Source: Lunularia cruciata
Taxonomy: Eukaryota > Streptophyta > Marchantiopsida > Lunulariales > Lunulariaceae
Direction of reading: 5' to 3'
NCBI GenBank assembly: GCA_948567375.1
Contig: OX419756.1
Coordinates: 65,610,333-65,674,332 of the forward strand
Length of the DNA: 64,000 nt
Positions 21,661-47,489 of this stretch are shown piece by piece (the first letter of the stretch is position 1; each line of letters starts with the position of its first letter). The notes under the pieces were generated by a model. That model worked only from the letters and a program-made list of their open reading frames with translations, had not been told where the DNA came from and searched no databases. A program made the position numbers and the translations under genes.

Positions 21661-22790
21661 TTTGTCACACCATTTGTAGTGTCACATCTAGATTGCTTGG
21701 ACACTGGAGTTGTAGTGATAGTTGTTAGAGTTAATTCAATAGTTTCTCAGAGACTACTTTCCAACAATCAGATTTTGTGTTTGGGGTACTGTGAGCCAGC
21801 CTGTCCCTCACTCAAGATGAACCTATGATGGCTATTATGGTAGCGCACCATGGACTAAGAAGGCAAGGAACCCCAACTCCATCATATTCCTCCAAGGCTC
21901 AAGATATTGCTCAATAGAGAACTCAATGAGAGAGAGATAATTGCAAATGAAAGGATGATGAGCACCTCCTCACCCCTTGTTTATATACTTGTGAAATAGT
22001 TACGCACCAAAGTTACTAATTACTATAGTAACTCAAGTTACTAGACTAAAAGTCAAGTAAAGTCAAAAAGTAGAAAGGAATATCCATTCACATGGGCATA
22101 TTCCCTAAGCATGTGGTCTTATCTTGACCCAACCACTAAGTCAAGGATTCCTTCACATGGGCTATCCTTGGACTAAAGAAGAATCCAAAACAAAAAGGCT
22201 TGTGGGCCTAGGAGTTCTCAACTCTTTCCTCAAAGTCAAACACCTAGGAATAATACCAAGTCAACACACTAAAATCCAAAATAGTGGTGCTCATCTTTTC
22301 TATTTCCTCTAAATTAAAGTCCCCTCTATCTTAGTCATGACTAACTTTAGCTAACCATGACTAATATAGAACCATCCTTTATCTCTATATAAATAATATC
22401 TCTCAAGTACTTATAATACCAAGCTAAATATCACAACCACACACATGCACAAATGGGTGTTACAGTACTAACTTCACGGTGGGGCCCATTGTCACTTTGC
22501 ACCGTTTGCACCATCAAGTGTGCAGTCAGTGGGATGGTTAGAGTTTAGACCTAGCTCAAGTCACGGGGATACACTTTCAAAGTGCAGCTCTAGAGAGCTC
22601 ACTTCTCTGATGTTGAGCCTTTGAGTTCCTAGCTATGGTGGATAGAGGCCGGTGAGCGTCACCTAGATTCTCTATGCTTGAGTGGGTGTGGGTTGACTGT
22701 AATCAGTGCCAAGTTATTAGGTGTTTATCAAGTATTGATTTGAGTTGAGTTGAGTTGAGTTGAGAGTGGTAAACAATCTGATTACATCAG
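21661..22790 (+). repeat. family P 5' terminal region (interrupted)
   Basis: It aligns with the 458 bp middle of the 3' terminal region (41696-42153), from tgtcacaccatttgtag to aaacaatctgattac. The 100 bp tg...ca units that flank that middle at the 3' end are absent here on both sides. A family S LTR sits at 21790-22464. Downstream, atcagagaagtgaag may be a decayed primer binding site, since it contains the ATCAGAG core of the initiator-Met tRNA site. Confidence 0.55.
21790..22464 (-). repeat. family S solo LTR (copy B)
   Basis: 675 bp in minus orientation, plus-strand ends tgtgagcc...gtgttaca. It is flanked by an exact 4-bp duplication gtac (21786-21789 and 22465-22468). The undisturbed site is visible at 41820-41840 (ttggggtactaagttc), which proves the insertion boundaries. 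Confidence 0.9.
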
Positions 22791-24806
22791 AGAAGTGAAG
22801 TTAGGGGGAAATTGGGTGCAGGAACTTTGAGTGTTGGTGGTATTCCAAGCTCGTTGATCGTTGGTAGCTCAATTCAAGTTAAGCTATTCCCTAGTGTGCA
22901 AAAGCTCATTCAATTGATGTAGATTTGGCAATAAGGCAAACGGTGTGCGGAAGCGCTGGCCAATTTTTGAGCAAAGAAGGAGCAAATTTTGAGTAGTGGT
23001 TGTGATTTTGAGCTCAAGAGGTGAAGGTAGGACCAATTTGTTGCGAGTTGGGCTCAAAAAGTCAAATTGAAGGTGGAGATGGGAAGCTATTCTCATGAAT
23101 TTGTGATTTGGAGAAACCCGTGTTGTCAATTTGGCTTGAGTGGAAAGTTAGTGGGGGATTTGGCAAACAACCAACTTTAGGGTTTATGTCAAATTTTGGC
23201 TGGATTTTATGTCAGATTTTGGCCAGATTTGAAGGAGTTTTGCTAGTTTGGAGAAGTTTCACCAATTTTGGAGGAGGTTCAAAGTGGCAAGAAGAAAGGC
23301 CTGTAACGCCCATTTGTACATGTGTGTGGTATTGTGATATTTAGCTTGGTATTACAAGTAATTAAGAAATATTTTTTATATAAGGATAAAGGATGGTTCT
23401 ATATTAGTCATGGTTAGCTAAATTTAGTCATAGCTAAGATAGAGGGGACCTTACTTTAGAGGAAGTGGAAAAGATGAGCACCACTATTTTGGATTTTAGT
23501 GAGTTGACTTGGTATTATTCCTAGGTGTTTGGCTTTGAGGAAAGAGTTGAGAACTTTTGGGCCCGCAGGCCTTTTTTTGGATTCTTCTATAGTCCAAGGA
23601 TAGCCTATGTGAAAGAATCCTTGACTTAAAGGTTGGGTCAAGATAAGACCACATGCTTAGGGGAATATGCTCATGTGAATGAATATTCCTTTCTACTTTT
23701 TGACTTTACTTGACTTTTAGCCTAGTAACTTGAGTTACTCCAGTAATTAGTAACTTTGGTGTGTAACTATTTCACAAGTATATAAACAAGGGGTGAGGAG
23801 GTACTCACCATCCTTTCATTTGCAACTATCTCTCTCTCATTGAGTTCTCTAGTGAGCAATGTCTTGAGTCTTGGAGTGTTAGCCTTGGAGGAGTATGATG
23901 GAGTTGGGATTCCTTGCCTTCTTAGTCCATGGTGCGCTACCATAATAACCATTAGAGGTTTATCCTAAGTGAGAGATAGGCCGGGCTACAGGCCTCATTT
24001 GGCTAAATTTTGGCATTTAGAGGCTTTGAGGCATAGGGTTGTGGGCTATGAAGGCCCAAAAGAGCCAACAAGCCAGCTTGCTAGCGTGAGGCTAGCTAGT
24101 TTAGAGTAGATCTTGGTCATTGGTTGGTAAAATCTGCTTTTCTTGCTAGATTGTGTGCAATAGGGTTTGACCCCTATATCTCTTGCTCCTAGACTGGTGC
24201 CCTAGTTAACTAGTCCACCTTCACTTGTTGTCCTAGTGATTGTGCCACTATTATCTATACATATGTAGCTTTGGCTAGGAGAGGCAATTTGATCCCATTC
24301 TTGGTGATCCTGGTAGCTTAGGACTTAGAAACAAACTTCTCTTATGTCAAATGCCAAATGGTGGCAGAGTCAATCCCGTGTTGTTTTATGAGATGGAGAG
24401 TTTTTGTTTAGATTTCTTGTGATTGGACCCCCTCCATTCTCTACTTCCTGTTTGTGCACCACGTTTGTGCAAAGGGCCCTGACTTTTGAGCGTTGGTGCT
24501 TTGGTGTGCTCTCGATAGTGAGGCTAGAGTGATGACCAGTCAGACTACCTTTGTTTCCCTCCGGTGAGGTAGGAAGTGATGACCAGCAGACTGTGAGAGT
24601 GTGTGTGATGATTGCAAGTTATAGGTTGCCCTTTCTCCTAGTGTAGTTATCTTGGTTAGAGTTACATTAGTGGGTGGCGCTTAGTTGGTATTGGCACGTG
24701 GTGGTGTTGGCACTTGGTGGCATATTTAACAAGGGGTATATAACAAGGTTGCGACTTGCGGTTGCAGTTGGTGGTTCTGATTTGTTGTTGCGGTTACTTT
24801 GTCATT
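22791..24806 (+). other. family P leader and gag upstream region
   Basis: Non-coding leader of the P element up to the gag ATG at 24807, interrupted by S copy C. Repeats of ttttgg/attttgg and gtggt words occur but no ORF is convincing. This stretch has no homologue elsewhere in the window because the other P copies lack their 5' halves. Confidence 0.5.
23302..23990 (+). repeat. family S solo LTR (copy C)
   Basis: 689 bp, ends tgtaacgccc...ccgggctaca, flanked by ggcc at 23298-23301 and 23991-23994. The TATA-like motif (gtatataaac) is near 23778. It is inserted in the leader of family P copy 2. Confidence 0.9.
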
Positions 24807-25810
24807 ATGGAGTTCTTTGGGGATTCCAGAGGAGATAGCCCTATACTACGCAATGGATTTACTTGGAGTGGTACTCAATATCAGCTTGTATCTTAGGTCC
24901 CAATGAGGGAGGAGATTGACTCTGAGTTGGAGTTTGACACAAGAGCTGATTCAGTTGAGAGTGCACTTGGTGTGTTTGCACCGTCATTGTGGGACATAGA
25001 CTAGATTTATGAGGCCTCCAAAGGTCCTAGGCATTACTCTGGTATAGTGGGTACCATTGAGTTGGATGACTTCATCTAGGAGTTTGATAGTTGGTGTGAT
25101 CTGTAATAGATGCGGAACCCAAATTTGTTCACACCTTTCATGGCATGGAAGGGGGTGTTTCAGCACTTGGAGGGTCCGCCAATGGATGACTACCATGAGT
25201 TTAGGAGAGCTCATTTGGAGGAGATTGAGTTATGGAGACAATATTGGTCTCCAAACTATGTCTCTATCACTTTAGGCTTGGTGTCTAGGAGTAGATCGGC
25301 TGTACCTACGAGTTCTAGCTCAAGTAGTGTTGGTGGAGCTAGTGGAGGTGCACTAGCTAGAGATAGTGTTACCACAAGTGGAGCTACCGCTGCAAGAAGT
25401 GGTGTGGTACCGGGATTTAACCCCATGGTGGAGTTCTTCCTGTGTTTGAGGTAGAACTACCAGGGAGTGCGGATTGACAAGCTGAGGAGCTTGCAAGAGT
25501 TCCAATGGAAGGCTAGAGAGAGCCTACATGAGGCATACACTCGCATGAGGCGGCTGATCAGTTTCACTTAGGGAGTTATTGAGGCCCAAGCAGTCCAATT
25601 TTGGTATGGGATACTAGATAGGGAGTTACAACATAGAGTTCATGATGTTACTTTGTTGCAGGCTACTTTGCCCACTTTGGCAATGGTCTTTGGTTTGGCT
25701 GAGCATATTGAGCTCAACATGGTGGAGGAGAGAGTGGTGACATCTGGATTTGGTAGGGAGATCTCATCCACAACTGTGACTTCTTCTAGAGTGCAATAGA
25801 GTGCACCACG
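24807..25810 (+). pseudogene. family P gag, N-terminal and capsid part
   Basis: One frame from the ATG at 24807 to about 25800 without frameshifts, interrupted only by stop codons (mostly TAG where Gln is expected). It has an N-terminal region (MEFFGDSRGD), a Ser/Ala/Gly-rich linker (about 25290-25400) and a retrotransposon-gag capsid block: LQEFQWKARESLHEAYTRM, then AVQFWYGILDRELQHRV and LAEHIELNM. The C-terminal zinc-knuckle part lies beyond the M insertion, at 32078. Gag forms the virus-like particle in the cytoplasm in this class of elements. Confidence 0.7.
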
Positions 25811-25851
25811 CTATTGGGGAATTTGTTTGGCCTTGAGAGTGCACCGGGCTC

Positions 25852-28612
25852 TGTCGTCAGGAAAAAGCCAGATGAGAGTGGTAAGGAGTGGTTGCAGGAT
25901 TTTGAGAAGAGGAGGGCTGGACAATAGAGGGTTTTTTTTCAGTGAAAGTCTTGCGGGAGGGCACATGCTGACATGGTATGAAAATTCGGGACAGATGAGG
26001 ACTGGACAGCAAAGAGCTTTCGGAAAAATGTCAGATGAACTTGGTAAGGAGTGGTAGCTGGAATTTTTGAGAAGGGAAGGAAAGGAGAAGATAGATAAAT
26101 CTGAAAGGGCTTTGTTGAAGGATAGATAGGTATCGAGCACTTTTGCAAGGGGAAAGGAATCAAAGAACAGAGCAGCAAGAAGAGGGGACTCCTAAACGTA
26201 AAGGGGTTTGAGGAATCAAGAAAGGAAAAGACAAAAGGGAAGAGGGACAGAAACAGAAGGAAAATAGGAAGATCATGGGCAGAGAAAGGGGAACGGGGAA
26301 AGAATGGAAGGCAAAGTTGGGTAGCAGCAACAAAGGACAATCAAGGAGACAAGGAGGTCGAAAGAGGTTTTTGCGAAGGACAGGAACAAGAAGGGGGTTT
26401 GAAGTGACAGGAACAGGTCAAACGGTTTTGGGAAGGACAGAGGATCGAAAAGGGTTTTTCTAGAAAACAGGAAGATATAGATCAAAGGGTTAGAGTTGGA
26501 AGAAAAAGAATCGGAAGAGGGGTTGGGGTGAGAGTGAAAGATTGAAAGGAGTTTGGAGACAAGGGAATTGAAGTATTGAAAGGTGAGAAGGGCTGCCAGT
26601 TTTTGAGAAATGAGGAGAAGAGTTTCGGGAAAGTGCAGAGGATTTCGAGAGAAGACAGTAGAGAATTATCAAAAGTGAGAAGAGCTTGCAGTTTTTGGGA
26701 AATCAAGAGAGGAGTTTCAGAGAGAGAAAGTTGCAAAAGATTTCGAGAAAGGACAGTAGGGTTTTCAGGAAAGTGCAGAGGATTTTGAAAGAAGACAGTA
26801 GGGAAGTATTGAGAATTATTGAAAGGTGAGAAGGGCTGCCAGTTTTTGGGAAATCAAGAGAGGAGTTTCAGAGAGAGAAAGTTGCAGAAGATTTCGAGAA
26901 AAAGACAGTAGGTTTTTCGGGAAAGTGCAGAGGATTTTGAGAGAAGACAGTAGGGAAGTGATGGAGAATTATCAAAAGTGAGAAGAGCTGCCAGTTTTGG
27001 GAAATGAGGAGAAGAGTTTCGGGAAAGTGCAGAGGATTTTGAGAGAAGACAGTAGGGAAGTGATGGAGAAATATCAAAAGTGAGAAGAGCTGCCAGTTTT
27101 GGGAAATGAGGAGAAGAGTTTTGGGAAAGTGCAAAGGATTTCGAGGGAAGACAGTAAGGCAGTGATGGAGAAATATTGAAAGTGAGAAGAGCTGCTAGTT
27201 TCGGGAAATGAGAAGAAGAGTTTTTGGGAAAGTGCAGAGGATTTCAAGAGAAGACAGTAGGGAAGTGATGGAGAATTATAGAAAGTGAGAAGAGCTGCCA
27301 GTTTTCGGGAAATGAGGAGAGGAGTTTCAAGAGAGAAAGTTGCAGAGGATTTTGAGAGAAGACAGTAGGGAAGTATTGAGAATTATCAAAAGGTGAGAAG
27401 GGCTGCCAGTCTTTGGGAAATCAAGAGAGGAGTTTCAGAGAGAGAAAGTTGCAAAAGATTTTTAGAAAAGACAGTAGGGTTTTCGGGAAAGTGCAAAGGA
27501 TTTTGAGAGAAGACAGTAGGGAAGTGATGGAGAAATATTGAAAGTGAGAAGAGCTGCCAGTTTTGGGAAATAAGGAGAAGAGTTTCGGAAAGTGCAGAGG
27601 ATTTTGAGAGAAGACAGTAGGGAAGTGATGGAGAATTATTGAAAGTGAGAAGAGCTTCCAGTTTTGGAAAATGAGGAGAGGAGTTTCAAGAGAGAAAGTT
27701 GCAAAAGATTTTGAGAGAAGATAGTAGAGTTTCAGGAAAGTGCTAGAGGAATTCTCAAGAAGAGAAGACAGAGGGTTTCAGAAAGTATTGAGAATTATCA
27801 AAAGTGAGAAGGGCTGACAGTTTGGGAAATGCCAGAGGATTTTGAGAGGGAAGTTGGCAAGGTTGGGCAGGAGTTGATTTTTTCACAGTGAGAAGGACTG
27901 ACAGTTTTTGGGAAATGCCAGAGGAGTTTCAAGAGAGAAGTTTGCAGGAACTTTCGAGAGAAACAGAGGGTGTTCAGAGGAGAAAGCATTGATGGGAGTG
28001 CTGCTGGGAGGTGAAGGAAGAAGTCCGGAGGGTGAGTTGTCTTTACTGTTATTGGACAGAGTGCGTGTGAAGGCGCCAGCTGAAATGATTTTCTATCATA
28101 ATTTAGTGCATACACTGTATGAACTGGAGTTGGTTGGCTTTTCCAAAATTGTGAACCTTGCAGCTGGAATTTTATGAATGACAAATCCTGAGAAAATGAT
28201 GTGTTTGATCTGTGACTAGCACCGAGGAAGTTCCATTTTAGGAGCTCTCAGTCCATCTATATGAATGGTTTGGTTCAGTAGGCTGGGTGCCGGGTTGAGC
28301 CGAATAGAATACTATTTGTTGTTTTTGAAATTCCCAGCCATTCCTAGGGACCGTCGGGTCCGAAACCGTAGCAGAACCTGCATGAACTAGCCAGTTTTGC
28401 AAAGGCCAAAGACAAACACAAACCCTCAAGAAGCCCAACATCAGGAAACAAAGGAAAACCCAAAATTTTACAGAGTTGAGATTTCCAACACACTAGGAAT
28501 AGGAAGAGAATGATAGTCTACGAGAAACTCTAAATCAACTACAATAATGGCAAACTAAGCACAAGCAGCCAGGTGCTCGGTGCACTCTCGAGGCCAAACA
28601 ATTTCCCTGACA
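25852..28612 (+). mobile_element. family M element (copy 2, plus) nested in copy 3
   Basis: 2.76 kb, starting tgtcgtcagg and ending ttccctgaca. Its last ~570 bp are the conserved M tail and match the complement of 28613-29160. The outer element's first 41 bp are found immediately to its left (25811-25851), which is why I read it as an insertion into the outer copy and not as a simple duplication. Its 5' start is not clearly the canonical one, so it may be truncated. An array lies at 26570-27960. Confidence 0.55.
26570..27960 (+). repeat. minisatellite array, ~102 bp unit
   Basis: Units of about 102 bp run gatggagaattat...aaagtgagaagagctgccag...gaagacagtagggaagt, nearly regular between 26930 and 27680, with shortened and rearranged units at both sides. 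The sequence is A/G-rich on this strand. Long frames in it have no protein meaning. Confidence 0.9.
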
Positions 28613-30129
28613 GTGCCTGGCTGCTTGTGCTTAGTTTGTCCTTGTAGTAGTTGAATTAGAGTCCTTGTAGATTGACATCCTCTTCCTATTTTGGGTGTGC
28701 TGGGAAATCTCAGCTCTGTAAGAATTTAGGGTTTTCTTTGTTTCATGAGGTCAGGTTTCTTGACAGTTTATGTTTGTCCTCGGCCTTCACAAAAATGGCT
28801 AGCTCATGTGGTTTCAGCTATGGTTTTGGGACCTGACGGTTCCTAGGAGAGGCTAGAATGTTTACAAACAACAACTAGTATTCTATTCAGCTCAACCCGA
28901 CCAAACTATTGAGTTAAACCATTCATATAGATGGACTGAGAGCTCCTAAAATGGAGCTTCCTTGATGCTTGTCACAAGTCAAACACACCATCATCTCAAG
29001 ATTTGTCATTCATAAAATTTTTAGATGAGAGGTTCACAAGATCGACAACCCAACCAGTTCATATAGTGTCTGCACTAAATTATGACAGAACTTCACTTTA
29101 GCTGGCGCTTCTCACACACACTCTGTTCAATAACAATAAAGGCAACTCACCCTTTGGGCCCTTTCTTCATCTCCTAGTTGCACTCCCATCAATGTTTCCT
29201 TGCAAAAGTTTCTGTTATCAACCAAGATCCTTCATGAAATGTTCTCAGCTCTCCCTTTAGAAAACTTCTATCAGCAGCTTAGTGCACAACTATCTTTGAC
29301 CTCCGTTCTCAAAGTCCTGTGCCAACATTAACTCTGTCTTTCATGTCACATGTTTGCCTTTTCCCTTGAAATTTCACCTTGCATTGACACCCATCAGCTC
29401 TTCAATTTCAAAATTTTCTCCTTGGTCATGTCATTGCCAATGGCCTCTCAAGGCATCTCTCTCTCTCCTTCCTTTGTCTTGTCGCAGACCAGCCAAACAA
29501 ATGCTTGAAACTACCCTCTCTTTCAATCTCCCTACCAATTTGTGAAGCTCCACACTCAGCCCTACTGCCCTTCTCTAAACTTTTGCTGTCCAAGCATCAA
29601 CTCCTGGGGAACATTCCTTTTGCAAGCCCTTTCTCCTTCCTGAACCCTCTCTCAGCCCTACTAGTCCTGTGCAATTTTCTTTCCTGTCCAGCCTTCTCTC
29701 TCTTGCAAGGTCCTTCATTCTCTTGCAAAGAACCCCATTTTCTGCTTGCATTCTCAAGGCCTTTGCTTTCCTAGGAAAATTTCTCTCCTCTACCTTGCAC
29801 ACCTTCAAGGCATACTCCTTGCCATTTTTTCATCTGGCCACTATCATGCTCAATAGCACTTTTGAAAGTTTTCTCTCTCCTTTTGTCACAGACCAAGGCC
29901 AAGCAACCTTTGAAAATCTCTCTTTAATAGTTCACTCCCGTCTAGACTCTTATTTGCTTTGTCTAGTCTCTCATTCACTCTATCTAGTCTCTCTTTTGTG
30001 AGAATTCTTCACTGCAACATTTTCAACACCACATCCTCTACATTCAAAATTCATTCCATGTCCACTTCTTCACAACAAACATTCTTCATTCAAAATTTGC
30101 TCTCCTATCAACATTCTCACAATAAACAT

Positions 30130-31430
30130 CCTTCCACATTCAAAATCATTCCTTGTCCAACCCTAAGGCATCTCAAAAATTTCCTCTGGGCCTGCAAGAG
30201 TCCTTGTCAATTCTCAAAAACCCTTCTCTCCTATCACAGCCCTAAGGCATTTTGAAATTCCTCTCAGGCCTGCAGCACTCTCACTCAACTTTCTAAAATC
30301 TTCTCCTGGCCCTATCACAGCCCTAAGGCAATTTGAAATTTTCCTCTGGCCCTGCAAGAGTCCTCTCTCAACTCTCAAAAACCTTCCTCTCTTGTCACAG
30401 CCCCAAGGCATTTCAAAAATTTCCTCTGGCCCTGCAAGAGTCTTCTCTCAACTCTCAAAAACCCTTCTCTCATGTCATAGCCCTAAGGCATTTCAAAATT
30501 CCTCCCTGGCCTGCAGCACTCTCACTCAACTTTCCAAACTTTCCTTTCTTGTCACAGCCCTAAGGCATTTTGAAATTCCTCCCTGGCTTGCATCACTCTC
30601 ACTCAACTTTCCAAACTTTCCTTTCCTGTCACAACCCTAAGGCATTTTGAAAATTCCTCTCTGGCCTTGCAAGACTCTCTCTCAACTCTCAAAAACCCTT
30701 CTCTCATGTCACAGCCCTAAGGCATTTTGAAATTCCTCCTTAGCCTGTAACACTCTCACTCAACTTTCCAAACTTTCCTTTCATGTCACAACCCTTAGGC
30801 ATTTTGAAAATTCCTCTCTGGCCCTACAAGAGTCCTCTCTCAACTCTCCAAAAACCTTCCTCTCTTGTCACAGCCCCAAGGCATTTCAAAAATTTCCTTT
30901 GGCCCTGCAAGAGTCCTCTCTCAACTCTCAAAAACCCTTCTCTCATGTCATAGCCCTAAGGCATTTTGAAATTCCTCTGTGGCCTGCAGCACTCTCACTC
31001 AACTTTCCAAACATTCCTTTCTTGTCACAGCCCTAAGGCATTTCCAAATTCCTCCTTGGCCTGCAGCACTCTCACTCAACTTTCCAAACTTTACTTTCCA
31101 GTCACAGCCCTAAGGCATTTTGAAAATTCCTCTCTGGCCCTGCAAGACTCTCTCTCAACTCTCAAAAACCCTTCTCTCATGTCACAGCCCTAAGGCATTT
31201 TGAAATTCCTCCCTGGCCTGCAACACTGTCACTCAACTTTCCAAACTTTCCTTTCCGGTCATAGCCCTAAGGCATTTCCAAATTCCTCCCTGGCCTGCAG
31301 CACTCTCACTCAACTTTCCAAACTTTCCTTTCTTGTCACAGCCTTAAGGCATTTTGAAATTCCTCTCTAGCCCTGGAAGACTCTCTCTCAACTCTCAAAA
31401 ACCTTCCTCTCCTGTCACTGCCCTAAGGCA
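30130..31430 (-). repeat. minisatellite array, ~77 bp unit
   Basis: On the plus strand the unit reads cacagccctaaggcattttg...ctggcctgcagcactctcac...ctttcctttcttgt, about 77 bp, with variants that carry gccctgcaagagtcctctc instead. Related words (agccctaaggcat, ttcaaaa-ttcctctc) occur in the 47 bp array of M copy 1 when that is reverse-complemented, so the arrays share ancestry. Confidence 0.9.
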
Positions 31431-31865
31431 TTTTGAAGCAGGCTCTTTTTTTTCCCCTAAACTTTTCTTTTCCCCTTCAGCCTTTTCTCTCAAAGCATAA
31501 ACCTCCCTGCTGTTCCTGCCCAAGCCTAACTTTTTTTCTTGAAGCATCACCTTTTCATAATTCCCCAAAATCATGCCTCTAATTAAAATACTCTTGAAAC
31601 CCCAATAACATAACCCCAATAACAAACTTCCCAATAACAAACTCTAGCACTTAAGTGACATGCTAATAAATCCCAAGCTTATGTAACCTTAAAGAAAATC
31701 CACCACTCAATTTCCTCCCTCCCTTAACACAAGAGAAAATCCTTGAGCATACAAAAACACAAACAAATACCGGTTTCACCAGAACATAAACTCTTGAGTT
31801 CAATAACATGGAAACTCACACCCAATGGCACCAATACTACATGTAGATTATTTTCCCCGACAACA

Positions 31866-32400
31866 ACACCCAATTGGTTTTTGAGGACAGGGTGGACAGC
31901 CCAAATCCGATGGAGCGAGTGGAGGGCCTTGTGGAGTTAGACCCTTACCTTCATTTTTGGGTCAACAACAGCCAGTGAGTGGTGGTGTTGCTTGTTGGTG
32001 GACCTCACCATAGGAGAGAGTGTACTCAGGGCAGCAGACCTGATACCTCTGGTGCATCACAACCAACATAGAGGCAGTGTGAGCATTGCCACAAATTTGG
32101 TCACACTAGTGACTGGTGTTTTGACCTACACTCGGAGTTATGAAGTGGTAGGGCTGCTATGGCAGGTAGTAGAGGAGCTCCAATTCATGGAGGAGGAGGT
32201 GGTAGAGGTGGTGGTAGAAGATCTACACCTAGTAGGAATGCAATACCCACCCTTACTTCTGATACAACTATGGCTACTCGGATTGAGCAGTTGGAGCAGA
32301 GATTGGATAGTATGGCTATTGCTTAGAGGAGATCAGATTGGGTGCTGAGGCTTCCACCTCATATGTTGGTGATAGAGATGCTTTGGATTTCATGTGCAGA
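31866..32400 (+). pseudogene. family P gag, zinc-knuckle part
   Basis: After the M insertion, gag resumes near 31905 (MERVEGLVELDPYL). A CCHC zinc knuckle lies at 32078-32119 (CEHCHKFGHTSDWC: Cys-x2-Cys-x4-His-x4-Cys), the nucleocapsid signature for genome RNA binding. A Gly/Arg-rich tract follows (32180-32225) and then a short predicted helix (TRIEQLEQRLDSM). Stops and a frameshift are present. Confidence 0.7.
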
Positions 32401-33282
32401 GTAGCACAGGTGGATGCATAAGCAGCAGTGACTAGGAGTGCAATACGTGCTCCAGAGCCTAGAGGAGCATCAATGGAGTTGGACCCCCAAGAGGAGAGGT
32501 TGGGAGACAGGTCAGACTTCCCCAGTCTTTCACGCTATTTGAGGCATTGCAGACAAAATCCATGGTTCCTAGATGTCCTAGTGCAGGTTTGGTAGGTAAT
32601 GATGGAGTGCATGATGGACTACTTGCTAGTAAACCACCTACTACTACACAGACTGAGTCTAGCATGATGTAGGGGCAGCTCAGATGATTATGAGGCGTCC
32701 TTTGTTTTTTGCCAATGATATGTTTACATTGGGAGTTGACCCAACCCCAACATTCCGGTTGGCTGCCACGTTGTGTGAGAGTAGGGATGGTGTGGTTCTT
32801 ACTACTAGAGCAGAGGTGGTTGGTAGTGGAGCTGACTTGGTTGAGGAGCATGGAATCTGTTCAACGACCAATGGTTTGTGGTAGGTAGTAGCGGCTAGAC
32901 TAGAGGAGTTGCCAACTAGACCGGCATTTGAGAGAGCGTGGTTCACACCCAGTGTTGTCCTATTGGATAACTAGAGGAGGATTTTCTGTTTGGTGGGACC
33001 TTCAAGGAAGGTCTATACACCATAGAGAGTCTTGTTAGACTCTAGTGCGTAGCCCCTTATGTTGGGGAAGGTGGCAATGGTCAGTCTAGAGTTACGGAAG
33101 ACCGATGTGGAGAGGTGTCTATTTCAGATCTAGACATCTCTAGGTAGTGGTTTGACACAATACATCACACATGGGGAGCTTGTGGTCCAAGTTCAGCCTG
33201 GTCATCCGATTGATAGCTCGGTGGTGAGAGCTTAGGCTATTGCAACAATAGCTGAGTCATATGATGTGCTAGTTGGGGGAGT
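32400..33282 (+). pseudogene. family P protease and preceding region
   Basis: The region 32680-32940 reads RRPLFFANDMF, then AATLCESRDGVVL and ELPTRPAFERAW, a block of unknown role. The retropepsin motif is at about 33029-33070: LLDSSA, stop, PLMLGK, where the family expects DSG/DTG; the Gly has become Ser and a Gln is a stop. Downstream AESYDVLVGG (to 33282) is the flap-to-end region and continues after the S insertions at 34661 (VLYSMGF). The protein would have cleaved the polyprotein. Confidence 0.6.
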
Positions 33283-34656
33283 TGTAACACCTATTTGTGC
33301 ATGTGTGTGGTATTGTAATATTTAGCTTGATATTACAATTACTTGAGAGATATTATTTATATAAAGATAAAGGATGGTTCTACATTAGTCTGTGAGCCGG
33401 CCTGTCTCTCACTCAGGATGAACCTCCGATGGCTATTATGGTAGCGCACCATGGACTAAGAAGACAAGGAATCCCAACTCCATCATACTCCTCCAAGGCT
33501 AACACTCCAAGACTCAAGACATTGTTCACTAGAGAACTCAATGAGAGAGAGATAGTTGTAAATGAAAGGATGATGAGTACCTCCTCACCCCTTGTTTATA
33601 TACTTGTGAAATAGTTACGTACCAAAGTTACTAATTACCGTAATAACTCAAGTTACTAGACTAAAAGTCAAGTAAAGTTAAAAAGTAGAAAGGAATATCC
33701 ATTCACATGGGCATATTCCCCTAAGCATGTGGTCTTACCTTGACCCAACCACTAAGTCAAGGATTCCTTCACATGGGCTATCCTTGGACTAAAGAAGAAT
33801 CCAAAACAAAAAGGCTTGTGGGCCCAAGAGTTCTCAACTCTTTCCTCAAAGTCAAACACCTAGGAATAATACCAAGTCAACACACTAAAATCCAAAATAG
33901 TGGTGCTCATCTTTTCTACTTCCTCTAAAGTAAGGTCCTCTCTATCTTAGCTTTGACTAACTTTAGCTAACCATGACTAATATAGAACTATCCTTTATCT
34001 CTATATAAATAATATCTCTTAAGTACTTGTAATACCAAGCTAAATATCACAATACCACACACATGCACAAATGGGTGTTACAAGTCATGATTAGCTAAAG
34101 TTAGTCATAGCTAAGATAGAGAGGACCTTACTTTAGAGGAAGTGGAAAAGATGAGCACTACTATTTTGGATTCTAGTGTGTTGACTTGGTATTGGCTTTG
34201 AGGAAAGAGTTGAGAACTCTTGGGCCCGCAAGCCTTTTTTTTGGATTCTTCTATAGTCCAAGGATAGCCCATGTGAAGGAATCCTTGACTTTGTGGTTGT
34301 GTCAAGATAAGATCACAGGCTTAGGAGAATATGCCCATGTGAATGGATATTCCTTTTTACTTTTGACTTTACTTGACTTTTAGCCTAGTAACTTGAGTTA
34401 CTCCAGTAATTAGTAACTTTGGTGCGTAACTATTTCACAAGTATATAAAAAAGGGGTGAGGAGGTACTCATCATCCTTTCATTTGCAACTATCTCTCTCT
34501 CATTGAGTTGTCTAGTGAGCAATGTATTGAGTCTTGGAGTTTTTGGAGCCTTGGAGGAGTATGATGGAGTTGGGGTTCCTTGCCTTCTTAGTCCATGATG
34601 CGCTACTATAATAGCCATCTGAGGTTCATCTTGAGTGAGAGACAGGCCGGCTCACA
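33283..34656 (+). repeat. family S solo LTR (copy D) interrupted by copy E
   Basis: The pieces 33283-33390 and 34087-34656 make one S LTR in plus orientation, starting tgtaacacct and ending ccggctcaca. It is flanked by gagt on both sides (33279-33282 and 34657-34660). It sits in the protease region of family P copy 2. Confidence 0.9.
33391..34082 (-). repeat. family S solo LTR (copy E) nested in copy D
   Basis: 692 bp, minus orientation, tgtgagcc...gtgttaca, flanked by agtc at 33387-33390 and 34083-34086. It is inserted head-on into another S LTR, showing at least two rounds of S activity after P had inserted. Confidence 0.92.
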
Positions 34657-34660
34657 GAGT

Positions 34661-35127
34661 AGTGTTATACTCCATGGGTTTTCTGTATTGACTATTGGGA
34701 AGAGACAACCTCCTATAGACCTGGTTGGCAGTCTGGTGAGGGATGGGTATGTTGCCTACTAGTATGCTTCAGTAGTGCAGTCTTGGCTCACTATAGTCCG
34801 GGACCATGGTAGCATTAGTTTTAGCTTTCAATGGTGTAGTTTACTTGGCCTAATGACTTGTTGGAGGGGAACGCCCATGCAGAGGATACTCCAATACCAG
34901 AGAAGATCATTTGGATTTGGAGTACAAGTGGGATTGTTCCATCCACCTTGGATGTTCCATTGTAGAGTTCCAAGGAGGCATTGTAGCAACATACAGATCA
35001 GTTGGTGCAATAGGCTTAGAATGGAGCCTTCGTACCATTAGGAGATTAGTGTGAAAATGAGCCTCCAAAGGTGATTGCTTTGACACCTTTGGATACCACA
35101 CTTATTGCTTGGCAATATCCAATAGAG
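34661..35127 (+). pseudogene. family P region between protease and methyltransferase
   Basis: Broken coding sequence in the polyprotein. It begins with the protease-end phrase MGF, passes degenerate stretches, and ends with PPKVIALTPLDTTLIAWQYP, which runs directly into the methyltransferase start. No domain of its own is recognised. The frame is lost in the middle. Confidence 0.5.
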
Positions 35128-38010
35128 GGGATATGCCTATTGGAGTTGTTTGGTGGGATTAGCACCGGACTAGTTGCGGTATTATAGGCGGGTATACAAG
35201 TATAGAGGTACTTGTATGTAGAGAGAGAAGAGATTGCTAGGCAAGTCTCTCTACATCATGTGGCACACTTGGCCTATTGGTATCCGGAGTTATTACCAAT
35301 GTCAACTGTCAGACGTTACCAGAAGGTCCTACCAGCTGACATTTCCTTATTGGGGGCGCATGACCTAGAGAGACATAGGGCTATTCACTTGGTAGTTTCT
35401 AGATGGCCTTGTTAGGGACATACATGTGCGGGCCGCGGTTTGGGTATTTAGGATCCTCATTTTGGTATGTTTTTGTGGTACCCATATTTTTCATTTTGGA
35501 TGAGTTCTAAAGAAGAAATGCCTTGTTGGAACCAAATTGAAACCAAATGGAAAAAAATGAGTGGAAACGTGTGTGCAAGCACCAAGCTCAAGGGAGTCAA
35601 CTTTGTGTTAAAGGACGAAGGGTTCAGACTAGATTAGACCCAAAGAAACTTACTTTGCGTCAGAGGAGGAAAAAACTTGGATCAAGCGCTGAAGGAGGGC
35701 AGACCCGAAGGAAGAATGAAGGTTACAGTCAGGAATACTGCGGGAGCCATATCTCAGTGACCACAAGTACACATCAAGCGTGCTATATCTTGTTGGAAGC
35801 GTCTTGTTCAAGGCTTTCCATTTCCACCAAAATTGCAAAGTTTAGAGGTCTGTACAAGAAGTTACAAACATTTGAAGTTTTAGGAGTAGATGTATAAAGT
35901 ACTTTGGTGTCTTTGGGTCAATGTGACTTCGGACTTCGTACTTTGGACCTTGGGTTTACATGAATTTGGGTATAAAGACTTTACCTCAAGACAAATATAT
36001 TGTACCCAAAGAAGTCGGACCTTGGAATGCAGTGAAGGTGACTTTGAGAGTTTTGCCCAAGGGATCAGAGGAAGTTAGAGTAGAGAAAGAAGATAGTTAG
36101 GATACCCATGACTTCAATTTCAATTTTGATTGAAGATGGAATATGAATTGAAGGAGAAGTAGCAGTAGTGAATAAATCCAAAGTGCAAAATCAGACAATA
36201 AGTGTCTTTGTGTCAGTTACATGAGTGATTGTGGGTTACAAATTGAAGGTGTAGATAGTGTATTCATACTTTCAATTAAAATTCTTGATGATGACATAGT
36301 AGAATTAGTAAAGTAATTGATAGTAATTAAGCCCAAAGTAAGAGAGATAGGAGTGTATGTGTCTTTGGATTTGACATTTGACACTTTAGAGAAGAGTGGG
36401 TTGGGAGATAGAGATTTAGAAGGATTACTTGTGATAGGAACTGTAGATTAGAGTGGAGAATTAGTAGAATTAGTAGAGGAAATAAGAGTTGTGAAACCTA
36501 AAGATAGAGTAGTAGGAAGTGAAGTTACTTCAGGATTGGGTTTGTAAGCCAAAGAAGAAATAGACATTGGATCAGATTATTAATAGAATTGAGATTTGAA
36601 GAGGTAGATATGAAGAGGTGCATTGTCATTTTGGATCTACAAGTTTGTAGAGTTGTTAAGAAGAGGTACATTAGGAGGATAACTGTTGATTGCTTCACTA
36701 TTTAAGAGTGTCATTTGCAACATTATGTTGTTCAGTGCTCATTATTTTTGAGAAAAGATAAAGCAAAGTGTTGTGAAGCAGTGCTCTTCGCTTGAGCTTG
36801 ATTCCGAGTATCAACTTTGCAATTGTATTTGTGAGTGTGTGGAGAAATTTGAAGTGCAAGTCAATGTGCTTGTTGGATGTAGAATTTTGTAGCCTTGATC
36901 TTCATTCTATGTGTTTAATCCTGAGTGAAGTGCAATCGGAGCAATGCCTTGATAGATCTGAGAGGAATTGTAGTGTTGGTAATATTTTGCATTTGTGAGT
37001 GCAGTGCGAAGTTGATATGAAGCAATTTTGATCGAGGAAGTTGTGCCTTCAGTGGAAAGGTAGAACACAATTCTGAGGCAAAGCCATTTTGTAGTGAAAT
37101 GCCATTTTTGGGAGAGCCTAAATCATCACAATCAATATTGTTTGGAAAGATTTGATGGAATTGTGATTAAGGAGTGTTAATTTGTGACAAGACTATGAGT
37201 CAGTGCTTGCTACTCTCTTCTAGGTGTAGTTTCTACCTGAGAGATTAAAGATGCAACCAAGAAGACCTGCAATTGTTACTATTTGACTTTGTATTTAGAC
37301 ATATCTAACTTGTATCTCTACAGGAACAAACTTTACTTACCTGATTACCACAAAAGTGATATTTGCCGGGTTGTCACAGTTTTAGGAGATGTTACAAAAA
37401 CTACGACATCTCCAAGTTCATCAATCCGTTTCTCCAACTTACCTTTTAGAGAACGTGCCTTTGATGGGTGATTCTTGCACAAGAGTGGTGGTGAGTATAC
37501 ATCAAGTCCATTCTTGGATGGGACCTACTATATTGTTAGATGCAGCCAGAGTGGGATCACGGGCTCATCATCTTTGTCTTTGGTGGAGAAACCTCTTACC
37601 CAGAGTGGTTTCACAACGTGCTTATGATGAGATTCAACAACTTGAGCACATCCTTGTTGATGACATCTTAGATGTTGGGCATCAGTCTCAGAAAGTGGTA
37701 GTGGCTGATGGGTCACCTATGGCAGTGGTGAACCTAGTTGGACAGCCTAGAGCAGTATTTCTTACACTCATGAGTTTCCTAGGCTCTCATGCATTTTGAG
37801 AGGGAGGACTTGGACTTGTTTGGGATTCACAGTTACAATAGTTAGTGGAGCCCAATGTTGATAAGAGAGAGAGCGGGCAATGGGTTTTGATATTGGTATT
37901 ACTGCTGTTCTAACAATGTCAAAGGCATCCAAGTGTCAAGTGTTAGGTCAGGCTATGGACCTGAATTGTTTGACCTTGATTGTGAGCCTTGGCTTGGCAA
38001 AGCAGCGTAG
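35128..38010 (+). pseudogene. C5 cytosine DNA methyltransferase domain in family P
   Basis: About 320 codons when the insertion 35474-37378 is left out. The cofactor-binding motif I is LLELFGGISTGL (35140-35178). YVERE follows (motif II). Motif IV, WPC then a stop then GHT (35404-35424), keeps the catalytic Cys at 35410-35412. Then come ENV (motif VI, 37449-37457), AARVGSRAHHLCLWW (motif VIII), and, after a likely 2-bp frameshift near 37875, MGFDIG and VLGQAMDLNCLT (motifs IX-X). Such enzymes transfer methyl from S-adenosylmethionine to cytosine C5 in DNA. It lies in polyprotein order between protease and RT on the same strand, so it is element-borne. Several TAG stops disable it. Confidence 0.78.
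35474..37378 (+). mobile_element. family T element inside the methyltransferase (1905 bp)
   Basis: Ends tgtggtaccc...gggttgtcaca, with an exact 5-bp target duplication gtttt (35469-35473 and 37379-37383). Removing it restores the methyltransferase frame across motifs IV-VI apart from one TAG. It contains a TATTTAAGAG box near 36700. It also has a decayed piece of the T coiled-coil ORF (36330-36540), so it is either a long solo LTR that includes the end of that ORF or an internally deleted element. Confidence 0.85.
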
Positions 38011-38430
38011 GATGCGCTTGATAGGCATCACCATTTGGACACTTATGAGCCTTGTACCTATCAGATGATTCAGGCACATGCTGGGGGTGATGGACTGAAT
38101 GGACTTGGTATTCTTTGGACACAACCAGTAGATACTAGGGAGGGTGGTCTACTTGGAGTCCATCCAAGTGACCATGAGCTACTTGGATTACATCCTTGGT
38201 CCACTTGGGATGCAGCTAGAGGACGTGTGGAGCTTGCATCCAGAGTGGAGGGAGTTGTTCGTACAGAGGTTGGGACCTCTAGTGGTTGGAAGCATGACAC
38301 TATTGCTCCCAAGGGCCTAGTGTAGCAGCCAGTTAGTACGTCTTCTACTCCTACAATAGTTACAGAGGAAACTTGGGAGCCAAATCTTGGACCCAAGCTT
38401 ATTGGAGAGGAAAGACGGAGGGTTTGGAGG
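38011..38430 (+). pseudogene. family P linker between methyltransferase and RT
   Basis: The stretch after motif X has one readable frame over 38035-38325 with Gly- and Trp-containing segments but no known domain. Toward 38400 the sequence turns into the conserved approach to RT (KTEGLEVLKESHELFCL in the correct frame). Confidence 0.4.
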
Positions 38431-39170
38431 TTCTTAAGGAGTCACACGAGTTGTTTTGCCTTAGGTATGAAGGATTTGGATACTCCAAAGGGACTTGGTA
38501 TACAGATTGAGCTGACTAGCGATACACCAGTTTTACGGCATCCTTATTGCTATAGTGACATGGAGAGGACATTGATTTAGAGCCGTAATAGTGACCTTTT
38601 TGAGGCTGGTTTGGTGGAGATTTCACATGGAGAGTATGCATCAGCGACAGTGATGCCAGCCAAGAAGGATATGCATGGCAACTATACAAATAGGTGGATG
38701 TGTGGAGATTACCATCCTATCAACCAATAGACTAGGGCTGATTGGTATGCCATGCCTATAGCAGAGGAGATTTTTGATGCAATTGGGCATGCAAAGGTCT
38801 TTAGTACTTTGGATCTTTGAGCGGGATATTATCAATTGCCAATCAAGGAGGAGGATAAGTCCAAGACAACATTCTGGGCTATTGACCCTCACGGCAAGGA
38901 TGTGTTATATCAGTGGAGGTTCTTACCATTTGGGTTGAAGAACGCTCCTATTGAGCTCTAGAGGATCATGGATAGGATCCTAGCTGGATTGGATTTTGCT
39001 CAGTGCTATATTGATGACATTTTGGTCTATGGCAATAATGTGGAGGAGCATGAGAGATAGTTGTTGGAGGTGTTTGAGAGGTTGAGATCTCATGGACTCA
39101 AATTACATATTGGGAAGTGTAGGTTCTTCCATGAGCAGGTTGAGTATTTGGGTCAAACTATCTACCCTGG
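38430..39170 (+). pseudogene. family P reverse transcriptase
   Basis: Readable motifs in order: MKDLDTPKGLG, VMPAKKD, WRFLPFGLKNAP, and the catalytic YIDD at 39007-39018, then LLEVFERLRSHGLKLH and KCRFFHEQVEYLG. This is the Ty3/gypsy order. Compared with the minus-strand copy at 63216-63812, several Gln codons there are TAG here. The enzyme copies the element RNA into DNA inside the particle; this copy is dead. Confidence 0.9.
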
Positions 39171-39800
39171 AGGACTTGGTGTTTAGCAAACCAAGGTGGA
39201 GGCTATTGCACGTATTCCTTGGCCTATGGATATGAGCAGAGTGCAAGCATTCCTTGGGTTGGTAAACTTCTATTGCCGTTATGTTAGAGGATTTAGTGCC
39301 ATTTCCAAGGCCTTGATGAAGCTGACCAAGCTTACATAGGAGTGGTGCTGGGGAGATGAGCATGAGAGAGCTTTTGTAGAGCTCAAGGAGAGGTTGACAT
39401 TTGCTCATATTTTGAGGAGACCAATCAGAGGACGACCATTTCAGGTTCATACTGATTGGAGTATGTTGGGGCTTGGAGCGGGGCTCACCCAACATGATGA
39501 TGAGGGGAAGGAGTTTGTGGTGGCCTATGCTAGTTGCTCCAACAATTCAGCGGAAGCAAAGTATAGTTCATATGAGGGAGAGTGCTTGGCAGTAGTTTGG
39601 GTAGTAGCACATTTCCAATGTTACCTATTTGGTAACCCCTTCACTCTCATCACTAATCATCAGCCGCTGAAGTGGTTGATGGAGTCCGACAAGCTTGCAT
39701 GATGTGCTTTAATTTTATAGGAGTATGATTTCACGGTTGTTCACAGACCTGGAGTGGTGAACCGTGATGCAGATGGGTTGAGTAGAAACCCATGTCCTAG
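39170..39800 (+). pseudogene. family P RT connection and RNase H
   Basis: The connection region has VQAFLGLVNFY and RAFVELKERLTFA. The RNase H domain (about 39418-39790) shows FQVHTDWSMLGLGAGL with the first catalytic Asp, YSSYEGECLAVVW with the Glu, and ITNHQPLKWL. The third acidic residue is in the VNRDADGLSRNP tail. RNase H removes the RNA strand during reverse transcription. Confidence 0.88.
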
Positions 39801-40940
39801 CTAGCAGGATCAAACCAGAGTATGTTGGCATGGTGAGATAGATGAGGAGATGGTGCCAGGTTGGCATACATCTGCCTTTTTGTGCATATTTTCTGAGGCT
39901 TTGGTGGTATCTCTCTCAGTGCATACAAGATGAGTTATTGAGGTCACAAATCCAAAGAGTGAAGATATTGGTACAGTTCAGCGAGACATTCATGATGATA
40001 TCTTAGTGATGGACTATCTTTGCACTGGTGTTGTGGGTGGCATATTTGGAGCCAAGGAGAGAGATCATGTCCTTCAGCAAGCCAAAAGGTTCAGATTGGA
40101 GGTAGACACCTTTTGCATATACGGGAGGATGGTAGAGTACGAGTAGTACCACTTCCATCTCAAAGACCACAGTTGGTTTGTCATGCTCATGAGGAGCTAG
40201 GACATTTTGGAGTCAAGCATACATATAGCTTACTCCATAGTCATTATTGGTGGCACGGTATGCAGATTGAGGTACAACAATTTTTTGCCAGATGTGTGGT
40301 TTGTGACCAAGTTAGAGCATCATTCAATGCTCCCACACCACAATTACATCTATTACATATCATGGGATTGGGTTATCATTGCAGTCTGGACTTTGTTGGA
40401 CCTTTACCGCAAACTGTGAGGCATCATCAATATGTTTTGGTGATGGTGGAGCACTTCTCCAAGTAGATTGAGTTGGTGGCACTTTTTTACAAGTCTAGTG
40501 AAGGGATAGCTTACTTGTTCCTAGATCGAGTTCTTAGTCATTTTGGTGCACCAATTGAGGTTTTGACTGATCAAGGTACAGAGTTCTTGGGAGAATTTTA
40601 GGTCTTGTGTGACAAGGCTTTGATTGATCACCATACTACCTCCCGAGATCACCTTGAGGCAGATGGCTTAGTAGAGAGAGTGGTTCGGACAGTGAAGAGA
40701 GGATTGTAAAAGTATGGTTTGCAAAGAGGCCACTTAGGAGATTGGGATCTCTAGTTACCTTGGTTGGCCATGGGCTATTGGTTCAGCTGGCAAGCCTCCT
40801 TAGCATCCTTCTCTCCTTACTTCCTACTCTATGGACGAGATCCAGATTTACCTACCGCCATTGGTCGAGATGCTATTGTAGTTTTGGACTTGGATGACCC
40901 AAATATATGGATGAGCGCATGTTCTTAGTGGGCAGAGATC
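39800..40940 (+). pseudogene. family P integrase
   Basis: The zinc-binding HHCC region reads CHAHEELGHFGVKHTYSLL, then CVVCDQ (40180-40320). The catalytic core has SLDFVGPLPQ (first Asp), VLTDQGTEFLGEF (second Asp) and the HLEADGLVERVV stretch with the Glu. Stops interrupt at K/W and Q positions that are intact in the 61-62 kb copy. Integrase inserts the cDNA in the nucleus; it runs straight into the SH3-like and PHD part. Confidence 0.88.
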
Positions 40941-40949
40941 TTTTGGAGA

Positions 40950-41430
40950 GTGATGCTAATGGCCTTTGAGAACTTGGCAATTGCTCAACATAGAGAAACT
41001 TTACGCTATGCTACCATTCAAGGAGGAGGTTATAGACCCTTGATCCGTCAATTTCATCTAGGAGATTATGTATATCTACAGCAAACAACACCAACAACAC
41101 TTGACTTTTCTACAAGTCGCACTATCTTGAGAGTGGGTGAGGTTTTGCCATCTGGAGTCCTTGTGTTGGAAGGACATGATGGTGTTATTTGGAAGGATCA
41201 TGTGCACAATTGTGCGTCATGCCACCTCCCAAACATTGATGGTACAATAGATCCAAGCTTGGCACTTGTACATGCAAGCTTGAGGTGTATGTTATGTGGC
41301 TCTTTTGGTGGAGCTACTACTATGTTAGTGTGTGCTAGCTGTTTGAGAGGATGGCATATGGCATGTATGACTCCTTCCCTCACGGTGGTTCCTTAGGGAC
41401 AGTGGTTATGTCCTAGATATATTTGAACTA
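40950..41430 (+). pseudogene. family P integrase C-terminal domain fused to a PHD finger
   Basis: The frame is open without a stop from before 40950 to 41393. Residues 1-75 are the integrase tail and SH3-like domain (FHLGDYVYLQQ, ILRVGEVLPSGVLVLEG). Next comes a CASC pair, then a C4HC3 PHD finger: CMLC (41286-41297), CASC (41331-41342), GWHMAC with His 41355 and Cys 41364, then WLCPR with Cys 41409. The eighth ligand is Tyr here but Cys in the copy at 61213. Spacing Cys-x2-Cys-x12-Cys-x2-Cys-x4-His-x2-Cys fits PHD. PHD fingers bind histone H3 tails; in this position it may steer integration. Confidence 0.85.
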
Positions 41431-41595
41431 TAGCTAGTTCATTCTTTATATGGTATAGATTGCAGAAAGGCTACTAATGATGGGGCTCCATAGAACTTGG
41501 CATCTTGATCTTTGCCCTTCATAGGATATACCATATAATTAGAGTAGATGGCTATCTGGAGTTAGAGGGACCTAACCGCCAGCTAGGGGTGCAAT

Positions 41596-42253
41596 TGTGG
41601 CACTTTAGAGTCTATGTATGACTTATGTGTGAGTTGTGCTTCTATAGTGTATGATGTTGATAGTGATGTATGTTGTGTAGTGATGTATATACGCACAACA
41701 ACTATCACGCTATTTTGTAGTGTTGCATCTAGATTGCTCAAACACTAGTGTTGTAGTGATAATAGTTAGAGTTATTTCAGTTGTTTCTCAAAGACTACTT
41801 TCCGACGGTCAGATTTCATGTTTGGGGTACTAAGTTCATGGTGGGGCTCACCGTCACTTTGCACCATTTGCACCATCAAGTGTACTATTAGTAGGACCGT
41901 TGGGGTTCAGACATAGCTCAAGTCTAGGGGGTATACTTTTGAAGTGCAGCTCCAAAGAGCTCACTTCTCTGATGTTGAGCCTTTGAGTTCCTGGCTATGG
42001 TAGATAGAGGCCGACGAGTGTCACCTGGATTCTCTATGCTTAGTGGGTGTGGCTTGACTGTAATCAGTGCCTTGTTGTTGGCAGTTTATAGAGTGACAGA
42101 TCAAGTACTGATCTAAGTTGAGTTGAGTTGAGAGTGGTAAACAATCTGATTACTGTGGCACTTTAGAGTCTATGGATGACTTATGGGTGAGTTGTGCTTC
42201 TATAGTGTATGATAGTGACATTGATGTTTGTTGTGTAGCGATGTATATACGCA
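41596..42253 (+). repeat. family P 3' terminal region with 100 bp direct repeats
   Basis: It starts tgtggcacttt right after a purine-rich tract (agctaggggtgcaat). A 100 bp unit beginning tg and ending ca (41596-41695) recurs at 42154-42253, with 458 bp between. Family P copy 3 has the same 100-457-100 plan. The right neighbour is family T gag-like sequence after tgaaaaattt. Confidence 0.75.
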
Positions 42254-42263
42254 TGAAAAATTT

Positions 42264-43714
42264 CCTATCCAACTCAGTCCATTAAGCTGGATTGCCTCTC
42301 TTCCCTTCATGCTTGAGCCCATCTCTACAATTGCTTGCAGCAATTTTTGCCATGAAACCTAGAAAGCTCAAATTCCAATTCCATGCCAAAAATGTGATAT
42401 AAAGTCTATTCAAGACTTTGATCTATGATCAAGCATGTCTTTCACTCAAGATGAACCTCTGATGGTTATTGTGGTAGCGCACCATGGACTAAGAAAGAAA
42501 AAAACTCAACTCCATCATATTCCTCTAAGATTAACACTCCAAGACTTAAGATATTGCTCACTAGAGAGCTCAATGAGCTAGAAATAGTTGCAAATGAAAG
42601 GATGATGAGTACCTCCTCAACCCTAGTTTATATACTTGTGAAATAGTTATGCACCAAAGTTACTAATTTCTAGAGTAACTCAAGTTACTAGGCTTAAAGT
42701 CAAATAAATTCAAAAAGCTAAAGGACTATCCATACTCATGGGAATTTTCTCCTAAGTATGTGATCTTATTTTGACCCAACCACTAAGTCAAGGATTCCTT
42801 CACATGGCTATCTTTTGACTAAAGAAGAATCCAAAACAAAAAGGCTTGTGGATCCAAGAGTTCTTAACTCTTTCCTCAAAGCCAAACACCTAAGAATAAT
42901 ACCAAGTCAACACACTAGAATCCAGAATAGTGGTGCTCATCTACTTGTAATGAGCACTTCTTTTCAACTTCCTCTAAAGTAAGGTCCACTCTATATCTTA
43001 GCTATGACTAAATTTAGCTAATCTTGACTAATTTAGAACCATCCTTTATCTCTATATAGATAATATCTGTCAAGTACTTGTAATACCAAGCTAAATATCA
43101 TAATACCACACATATGCACAAATGGGTGTTACAGATCCTTGCCACTACATCAAATCAATGAATTGCAAGACCCTTCATGCACTTTGATTGTTTCCCTTTG
43201 GGGCCATTGTGTGCTTCCTCAATCTCAGTCTTTGAAAGATCAACCCCTCCTTGAAACCTGATATTCTAAGTTCTTTGGGAGGCATAGGATGTTGTCGTGA
43301 CATTTCAGAATGCCCGCAATGACGTTTCAATTTATAGTCTTTTGCTGATCTATCATTCTTTAGTTTATCTTCAATTGACACAAAAGTTCTATGTGGCTAG
43401 TTTCTATCACTCTCAATGTCTTCTTGATCCTAAGGTAGTTGCTTTCTTTACATGTACTTTCTTGATTGGCTAAACCCAAGGAAAAGTTATTACAAGTTCT
43501 TTGGATCGGATTGTGCATCTTGCTACAAAGTACTATGTCTTCAACTTTATGCTTCCATCCATCTGACCCAAGTCCTTTTGACTTTGATCTATGGTTGACT
43601 TTGGGTCTATGCTAAACACATAATTCTTCTTGTTTCTTCCCCATTTAGCTTTCCTTTGGCTTTAACAACTCACTTTTTTGTTAAAACTCATTAAAAAAAA
43701 TAATGTGGGTACCA
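42264..43714 (-). mobile_element. family T 5' part: LTR start, leader and gag start (minus)
   Basis: On the minus strand it begins tgtggtaccc at 43714, passes the conserved T leader (ttgggtttagccaatcaag) and reaches the gag-like start (43175-43381), which is then cut by S copy F. The remaining gag piece runs to 42264, where family P is inserted; it continues at 21660 and 18128. The leader follows the LTR start after only a few hundred bases, so most of the LTR seems deleted or the LTR is short in this copy. Confidence 0.55.
42424..43133 (-). repeat. family S solo LTR (copy F)
   Basis: 710 bp in minus orientation, with plus-strand ends tatgatca (canonical tgtgagcc, mutated) and gtgttaca. It is flanked by gatc at 42420-42423 and 43134-43137. 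It interrupts a family T gag-like gene. Confidence 0.88.
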
Positions 43715-47400: not shown

Positions 47401-47489
47401 CAACCCTTCACCTTCACTCTCCTATCCTCACCTTCATGAGGTTATCCTTTTTCAACTTCTGCCCAAACTCCTTCAGACCTGCAAAAATT

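Follow-up and report, generated by a model that had tools for sequence, protein, structure and literature searches.

A predicted DNMT3-type cytosine methyltransferase inside a decayed Ty3/gypsy element of the liverwort Lunularia cruciata

Cytosine methylation is the main weapon of the host against transposons, and for this reason an element that itself encodes a methylation enzyme is a paradox. Such an element was predicted in a window of 64,000 nucleotides of the liverwort Lunularia cruciata (contig OX419756.1; all coordinates below are those of the window), where a C5 methyltransferase gene was placed at 35128..38010, between the protease and the reverse transcriptase of a Ty3/gypsy polyprotein. 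Is the enzyme really there, of what kind is it, and what could a retrotransposon do with it?

A C5 methyltransferase block is present inside the Ty3/gypsy element, which we call P. A family HMM was built from 10 relatives, with the window sequence excluded, and run against the six-frame translation of the window. Three pieces were retrieved, corresponding to HMM positions 1-113 (35137-35475, E 2.5e-43), 112-276 (37380-37874, E 3.2e-68) and 272-324 (37862-38020, E 2.3e-18). The pieces are colinear and all lie on the plus strand, which bears out the original prediction of C5 motifs arranged in order on one strand. In 20 shuffled windows (base by base, 1-kb blocks), the same HMM gave no match at E<=100. 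The absence of any methyltransferase HMM match, named beforehand as an outcome that would speak against the gene, was thus not observed with the family HMM, but Pfam PF00145 missed both P pieces when each was searched apart (0/2 at E<=1). PF00145 scored above its cut-off in 3/6 relatives of one set, in 9/10 of another set and in L001, an intact relative described below.

The first part of the gene, a linker followed by motifs I to IV, occupies 34672..35473 (+; HMM 1-113; tblastn with P0024, 48.2%, and P0021, 58.8%), and the second part, with motifs VI to X, occupies 37379..38065 (+; HMM 112-276 and 272-324). Between them lies a 1905-bp sequence (35474..37378) that starts with TG, ends with CA and has the 5-bp duplication GTTTT on each side; related copies are located at 12955-13784 and 15485-16270. 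This is a solo-LTR-like element that arrived in the methyltransferase gene later, exactly within the limits predicted for a later interruption, and it is the only other DNA that interrupts the domain. As for the gene itself, the domain is present where it had been placed, but its true end is different, since tblastn with relatives extends it beyond 38010, to about 38065; moreover, the reading frame differs between the pieces and changes again near 37865-37871. The catalytic Pro-Cys, described as kept, is there, but the codon right after it is a stop, which is Gln in relatives (PCQ is kept in 10/10 relatives of the family HMM). The P copy is unable to make the methyltransferase.

Among the C5 enzymes compared, the methyltransferase of the P lineage is nearest to DNMT3, with DNMT3A/B being the best match both by sequence and by fold, and the motif order in the enzyme family (I, IV, VI, VIII, X) is canonical. 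Judging from its sequence, the enzyme is of the DNMT3 type. A PDB sequence search with piece 1 retrieved a weak DNMT3A match alone (E 0.015), and the search with piece 2 produced no match at E<=10. Solved DRM chains scored below DNMT3A against the P enzyme family; PDB entries 4onj/4onq represent a DRM. DRM methyltransferases belong to the same C5 superfamily and are related to DNMT3, but their motifs are rearranged, in contrast to the canonical order of P (PMC12344493, PMC6453930); no rearranged order was found in the P enzyme family. Host DNMT3 proteins of non-flowering plants, e.g., PpDNMT3b, resemble P in having a DNMT3-type domain with unpermuted motifs but, compared by their published description, carry DUF3444, whereas the P domain sits in gag-pol (PMC6453930).

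The whole of P spans 21664..42256 (+; limits approximate, set by terminal repeats and empty paralogous sites); the copy is old and dead and holds nested insertions. Its left terminal repeat A1 (21664..22785, +) is split at 21790-22464 by a repeat called X and matches 41714-41831 at 84.7% and 41827-42153 at 83.5%; region 21673-22785 was also considered as a separate P copy, which was rejected since it is this left end. The N-terminal part of gag is at 24792..25775 (+; tblastn with P0048, 51.7%, and P0037, 58.8%, E 9e-82), and the C-terminal part, with a CX2CX4HX4C zinc knuckle from about 32078, is at 31942..32579 (+; tblastn with P0030, P0037 and P0048). The ca. 6 kb between them (25776-31941), which include tandem arrays at 26.6-28k and 30.1-31.4k, are probably nested insertions. 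Gag is followed by an aspartic protease whose active site reads LDSSA (32678..33286, +; tblastn with P0030, 44.7%, and P0024, 49.5%) and by abutting partial, full and inverted copies of X (33283..34657). Downstream of the methyltransferase are reverse transcriptase and RNase H (38338..39699, +; RVT_1 4.3e-27, RT_RNaseH_2 1.3e-28), an integrase with an H2C2 zinc finger and an rve core (40020..41160, +, right limit approximate; H2C2 2.2e-14, rve 1.8e-7) and, at the integrase C-terminus, a PHD finger (41280..41430, +, limits approximate; PF00628 1.5e-7). The rve match has 31.8 bits in P, slightly below the Pfam cut-off of 32.6, and is well above the cut-off in L001. In tblastn searches, the RT-to-PHD region of relatives matched P over 38338-41417. 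The order PR-RT-RH-IN, the gypsy-type RT and a predicted DDE integrase assign P to Ty3/gypsy.

The ends of P do not carry two LTRs of identical type: the left end has A alone, and the right end has B-A-B, where repeat A2 (41704..42153, +, start approximate) is flanked on both sides by the 100-bp unit B (B1, 41596..41695, and B2, 42154..42256, both +), B1 being 92% identical to 42154-42253. The B-A-B arrangement was found at 3/3 right ends in the window (P, 60383-64000 on the minus strand, and 48-2644), and the full A-coding-B-A-B set was found in copy P. The flanks of P match two paralogous sites without the element (14.7-15.0k and 49.4-49.7k), and comparison with these empty sites did not fix a target duplication. 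Patterns for a tRNA-Met primer site matched at one place in the window (11 bases, at 11248), which lies outside P, and nowhere in L001. That P is old and dead follows from the ca. 16% divergence of A1 and A2, from low CpG (observed/expected 0.24 in 37379-41420, 0.30 in the whole window and 0.82 in L001), from in-frame stops spread through its domains (7 in 454 codons of the RT-RNase H stretch) and from at least one frame change within the methyltransferase.

Several other features were observed in the window. The X repeat is 675 bp long, has TG...CA ends and occurs in both orientations (21790-22464, 23302-23991, 33283-34657, 42424-43133, 316-997 and 4283-4499); 4-bp duplications GTAC, GGCC, AGTC and GATC were seen at four places, with GTAC at the X within A1. 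Tandem repeats also form long, strongly base-skewed arrays at 18580-20200 and 46370-48280. A second, distant gypsy-type RT stretch (51661-52565, +) is 23-34% identical to ORF2 of L001, and an ORF of 174 aa (56492-57016, -), hydrophobic in an N-terminal stretch and rich in proline in its tail, may be a host gene of the cell-wall type.

Protein searches gave 19 and 52 matches, with 52 distinct relatives in all, named ones being from Marchantia polymorpha, M. paleacea, Riccia sorocarpa and Sphagnum troendelagicum; all were found via the methyltransferase, and these counts are blind to sister elements without it. Marchantia proteins P0031, P0037, P0046 and P0048 combine gag, zinc knuckle, a DSGAQP/DSSAQP protease and the methyltransferase, which is incomplete at its end in the last three. 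P0030 contains zinc knuckle, protease and methyltransferase, P0024 contains protease and methyltransferase, and in Riccia P0041 the end of the methyltransferase runs into RT. Together with L001, the Marchantia and Riccia proteins thus support the predicted setting of a C5 methyltransferase between PR and RT of a Ty3/gypsy element. A tree of methyltransferase piece 2 was built from the 36/54 rows with at least 110 aligned residues; the 18 rows outside it include Riccia P0041 and Marchantia P0046 and P0048. The window falls into a 26-row group with Sphagnum and Marchantia (support 98/87), on a long branch whose exact position is unsure, and L001 and P0045 stand apart (100/100). A long-polyprotein search with methyltransferase piece 1 returned none of 225 candidates at E<=10, and scans of viral contigs with P0009, A3, part of L001 ORF1 and L001 ORF2 detected no relative. 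Since related elements are found in liverworts and a moss, the sequences suggest that the range of retrotransposons equipped with a DNA-methylating enzyme of their own includes land plants.

A scan of genome contigs retrieved one locus, L001, of 9285 bp, which is an entire contig with ends overlapping by 127 bp. Its ORF1 encodes gag, protease and methyltransferase, and ORF2, in the same frame, encodes RT, RNase H, integrase and a PHD finger (E 4.3e-10). L001 is 40-51% identical to the window in the methyltransferase and 53-61% from RT to PHD. Both P and L001 show gag-PR-methyltransferase followed by RT-RH-IN-PHD and a single stop between the ORFs, the end repeats being shown for P. L001 is filed under an uncultured cyanobacterium (Synechococcales MAG), and its content looks eukaryotic, from which we infer that it is misbinned, likely a contamination of the reference bin. 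The presence of both the methyltransferase and the PHD finger in members as distant as P and L001 suggests common inheritance.

The stop between the two ORFs deserves attention. UAG followed by CARYYA is a leaky stop context in plant RNA viruses. In P, the candidate leaky stop is a UAG followed by CAGCCA (38323..38325, +), and this TAG is the only stop in the RT frame over 38034-38570; at the L001 junction, TAG is followed by CAATCA. Both DNA sequences that show the junction (2/2) therefore fit UAG-CARYYA, and on both strands overall this context follows 6/2122 TAGs in the window and 2/190 in L001. Motif X is reached by 14/52 relatives, and HPWxxWD comes next in six, whose proteins end 31, 34, 38, 41, 58 and 70 residues further on, a stop and a contig end looking alike in these data; in the window, 37 residues separate HPWxxWD from TAG. 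The protein ends of relatives thus agree only partly with the position of the stop, and in the decayed P copy the TAG at 38323 might instead be a mutated CAG.

The original prediction mentioned methyltransferase-carrying retrotransposons in some algae, and this precedent proved right: PMC5890265 describes KnitGypsy-Dnmt3 of one charophyte, Klebsormidium nitens, which has a DIRS-like layout of repeats and a Ka/Ks of less than 0.2. Like P, KnitGypsy-Dnmt3 has gypsy domains, a DNMT3-type enzyme without the DRM rearrangement in the polyprotein and DIRS-like repeats, and by its text it likewise departs from the two-identical-LTR layout (PMC5890265). Likened by description rather than by K. nitens sequence, P is of the KnitGypsy-Dnmt3 kind, with a DNMT3-type domain in a gypsy polyprotein and A-coding-B-A-B ends. 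The text on KnitGypsy-Dnmt3 contains the word PHD 0 times and mentions no stop between methyltransferase and RT, and judged by that text these two features may set P apart (PMC5890265). Retrotransposons with a cytosine methyltransferase are also described there from Symbiodinium (SymbioDIRS-Dnmt3 and SymbioLINE-Dnmt), and A-coding-B-A-B, shared with P, is spelled out for SymbioDIRS-Dnmt3; these elements, however, are DIRS with a tyrosine recombinase or LINE, whereas P has a DDE-type integrase (PMC5890265). A 2025 paper returns to retrotransposon-borne DNMT3, naming streptophytes and dinoflagellates (PMC12344493). In the open-access literature, searched mostly by titles and abstracts, no description was found of a DNMT3-carrying gypsy element in land plants, of a PHD finger on a gypsy integrase or of a retrotransposon CARYYA. 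The kind is therefore already published, and the land-plant range, the placement of the stop and the PHD finger are possibly its new parts.

The explanation we lean towards, as somewhat the more probable, is that P belongs to a lineage of the KnitGypsy-Dnmt3 kind that makes methyltransferase at the level of gag, marks its own cDNA and uses the PHD finger to guide integration. A DNMT3-type cytosine methyltransferase would have become part of the gag-side polyprotein of a Ty3/gypsy lineage. Normal termination would yield ORF1 in excess and occasional readthrough would yield ORF1-ORF2, so the methyltransferase would be supplied at the gag level and enter the particle. There or in the nucleus, cytosines (most likely in CG) of the double-stranded cDNA of the element would be methylated before or at integration, while the PHD finger would help integrase to pick chromatin by the H3 tail. 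New copies would arrive pre-marked, like resident silent DNA. Methylation of cDNA is an idea already discussed in PMC5890265. Counted in favor of the proposal are the colinear pieces, the L001 architecture and its parts in Marchantia, Riccia and other relatives, the kept PCQ, the DNMT3A/B match by sequence and fold, UAG-CARYYA, the A-coding-B-A-B ends and the retrotransposon DNMT3s from Symbiodinium, which in yeast carry out de novo methylation of CG (PMC5890265); counted against it are the inactive K. nitens enzyme, the Pfam miss on the P pieces, a candidate leaky stop known from two DNA sequences and a set of relatives gathered through the methyltransferase itself. Hiding, self-limitation and cDNA protection could all be roles of the methyltransferase.

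The enzyme may also have another task or none on DNA. It strikes us as unlikely that in this lineage the domain has stopped methylating DNA and persists either as a particle component that is structural or binds nucleic acid, or as an RNA methyltransferase. In favor of this, no activity was seen in yeast for the gypsy enzyme of K. nitens, a result that its authors judge inconclusive (PMC5890265), and motif IV reads WPCQGH/Q vs SPCND in DNMT3A. Against it, those relatives whose sequence covers the catalytic Pro-Cys, ENV and SAM-site motifs, among them L001, have kept them. Somewhat less likely still, the enzyme of the same element would act mainly on host chromatin or at the integration site, with IN-PHD bringing the complex to selected chromatin and flanks or host genes, not free cDNA, becoming methylated. 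The PHD finger on the integrase of P and L001, closest by sequence to those of CHD4, PHF12, UHRF1 and KDM5, fits this reading; a gag-side methyltransferase, apart from IN-PHD, would however mostly sit in cytoplasmic particles, and the K. nitens methylome is described as ordinary (PMC5890265).

Two further explanations concern the identity of the element. A-coding-B-A-B ends could point to a DIRS-like element with a tyrosine recombinase, yet P has H2C2 and rve matches in place of such a recombinase and a gypsy-type RT-RNase H, and the DDE-type integrase already contradicts this very improbable view; the longer inverted repeats near 33-34k and 42-43k, considered as DIRS-like ends of P, were rejected as nested X copies in both orientations. 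Least credible of all is that a piece of a host gene landed once, in a single retrotransposon copy. Within the window 1/3 P copies reaches the methyltransferase region, since one of the others is cut off by the edge of the window where it matches 38647, and the other starts in integrase. The same setting in Marchantia, Riccia and L001 already contradicts a one-off event, and nothing except the later TG...CA insert interrupts the domain.

For a lineage of the KnitGypsy-Dnmt3 kind, a specific sharing of tasks is suggested by the gag-side enzyme, set before a candidate leaky stop, and by the PHD finger of the integrase. The published gypsy case comes from one alga (PMC5890265), and the relatives in Marchantia, which is grown as a laboratory plant, make the question testable: what is methylated, when, and who gains. 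We tentatively consider it possible, short of probable, that one ancient capture, before the land-plant elements and the L001 lineage split, gave a gypsy lineage its own writer (a gag-level DNMT3-type enzyme with a conserved leaky UAG) and reader (IN-PHD), both kept through land-plant evolution. If true, this single capture would mean a retrotransposon able to set up an epigenetic state of its own.
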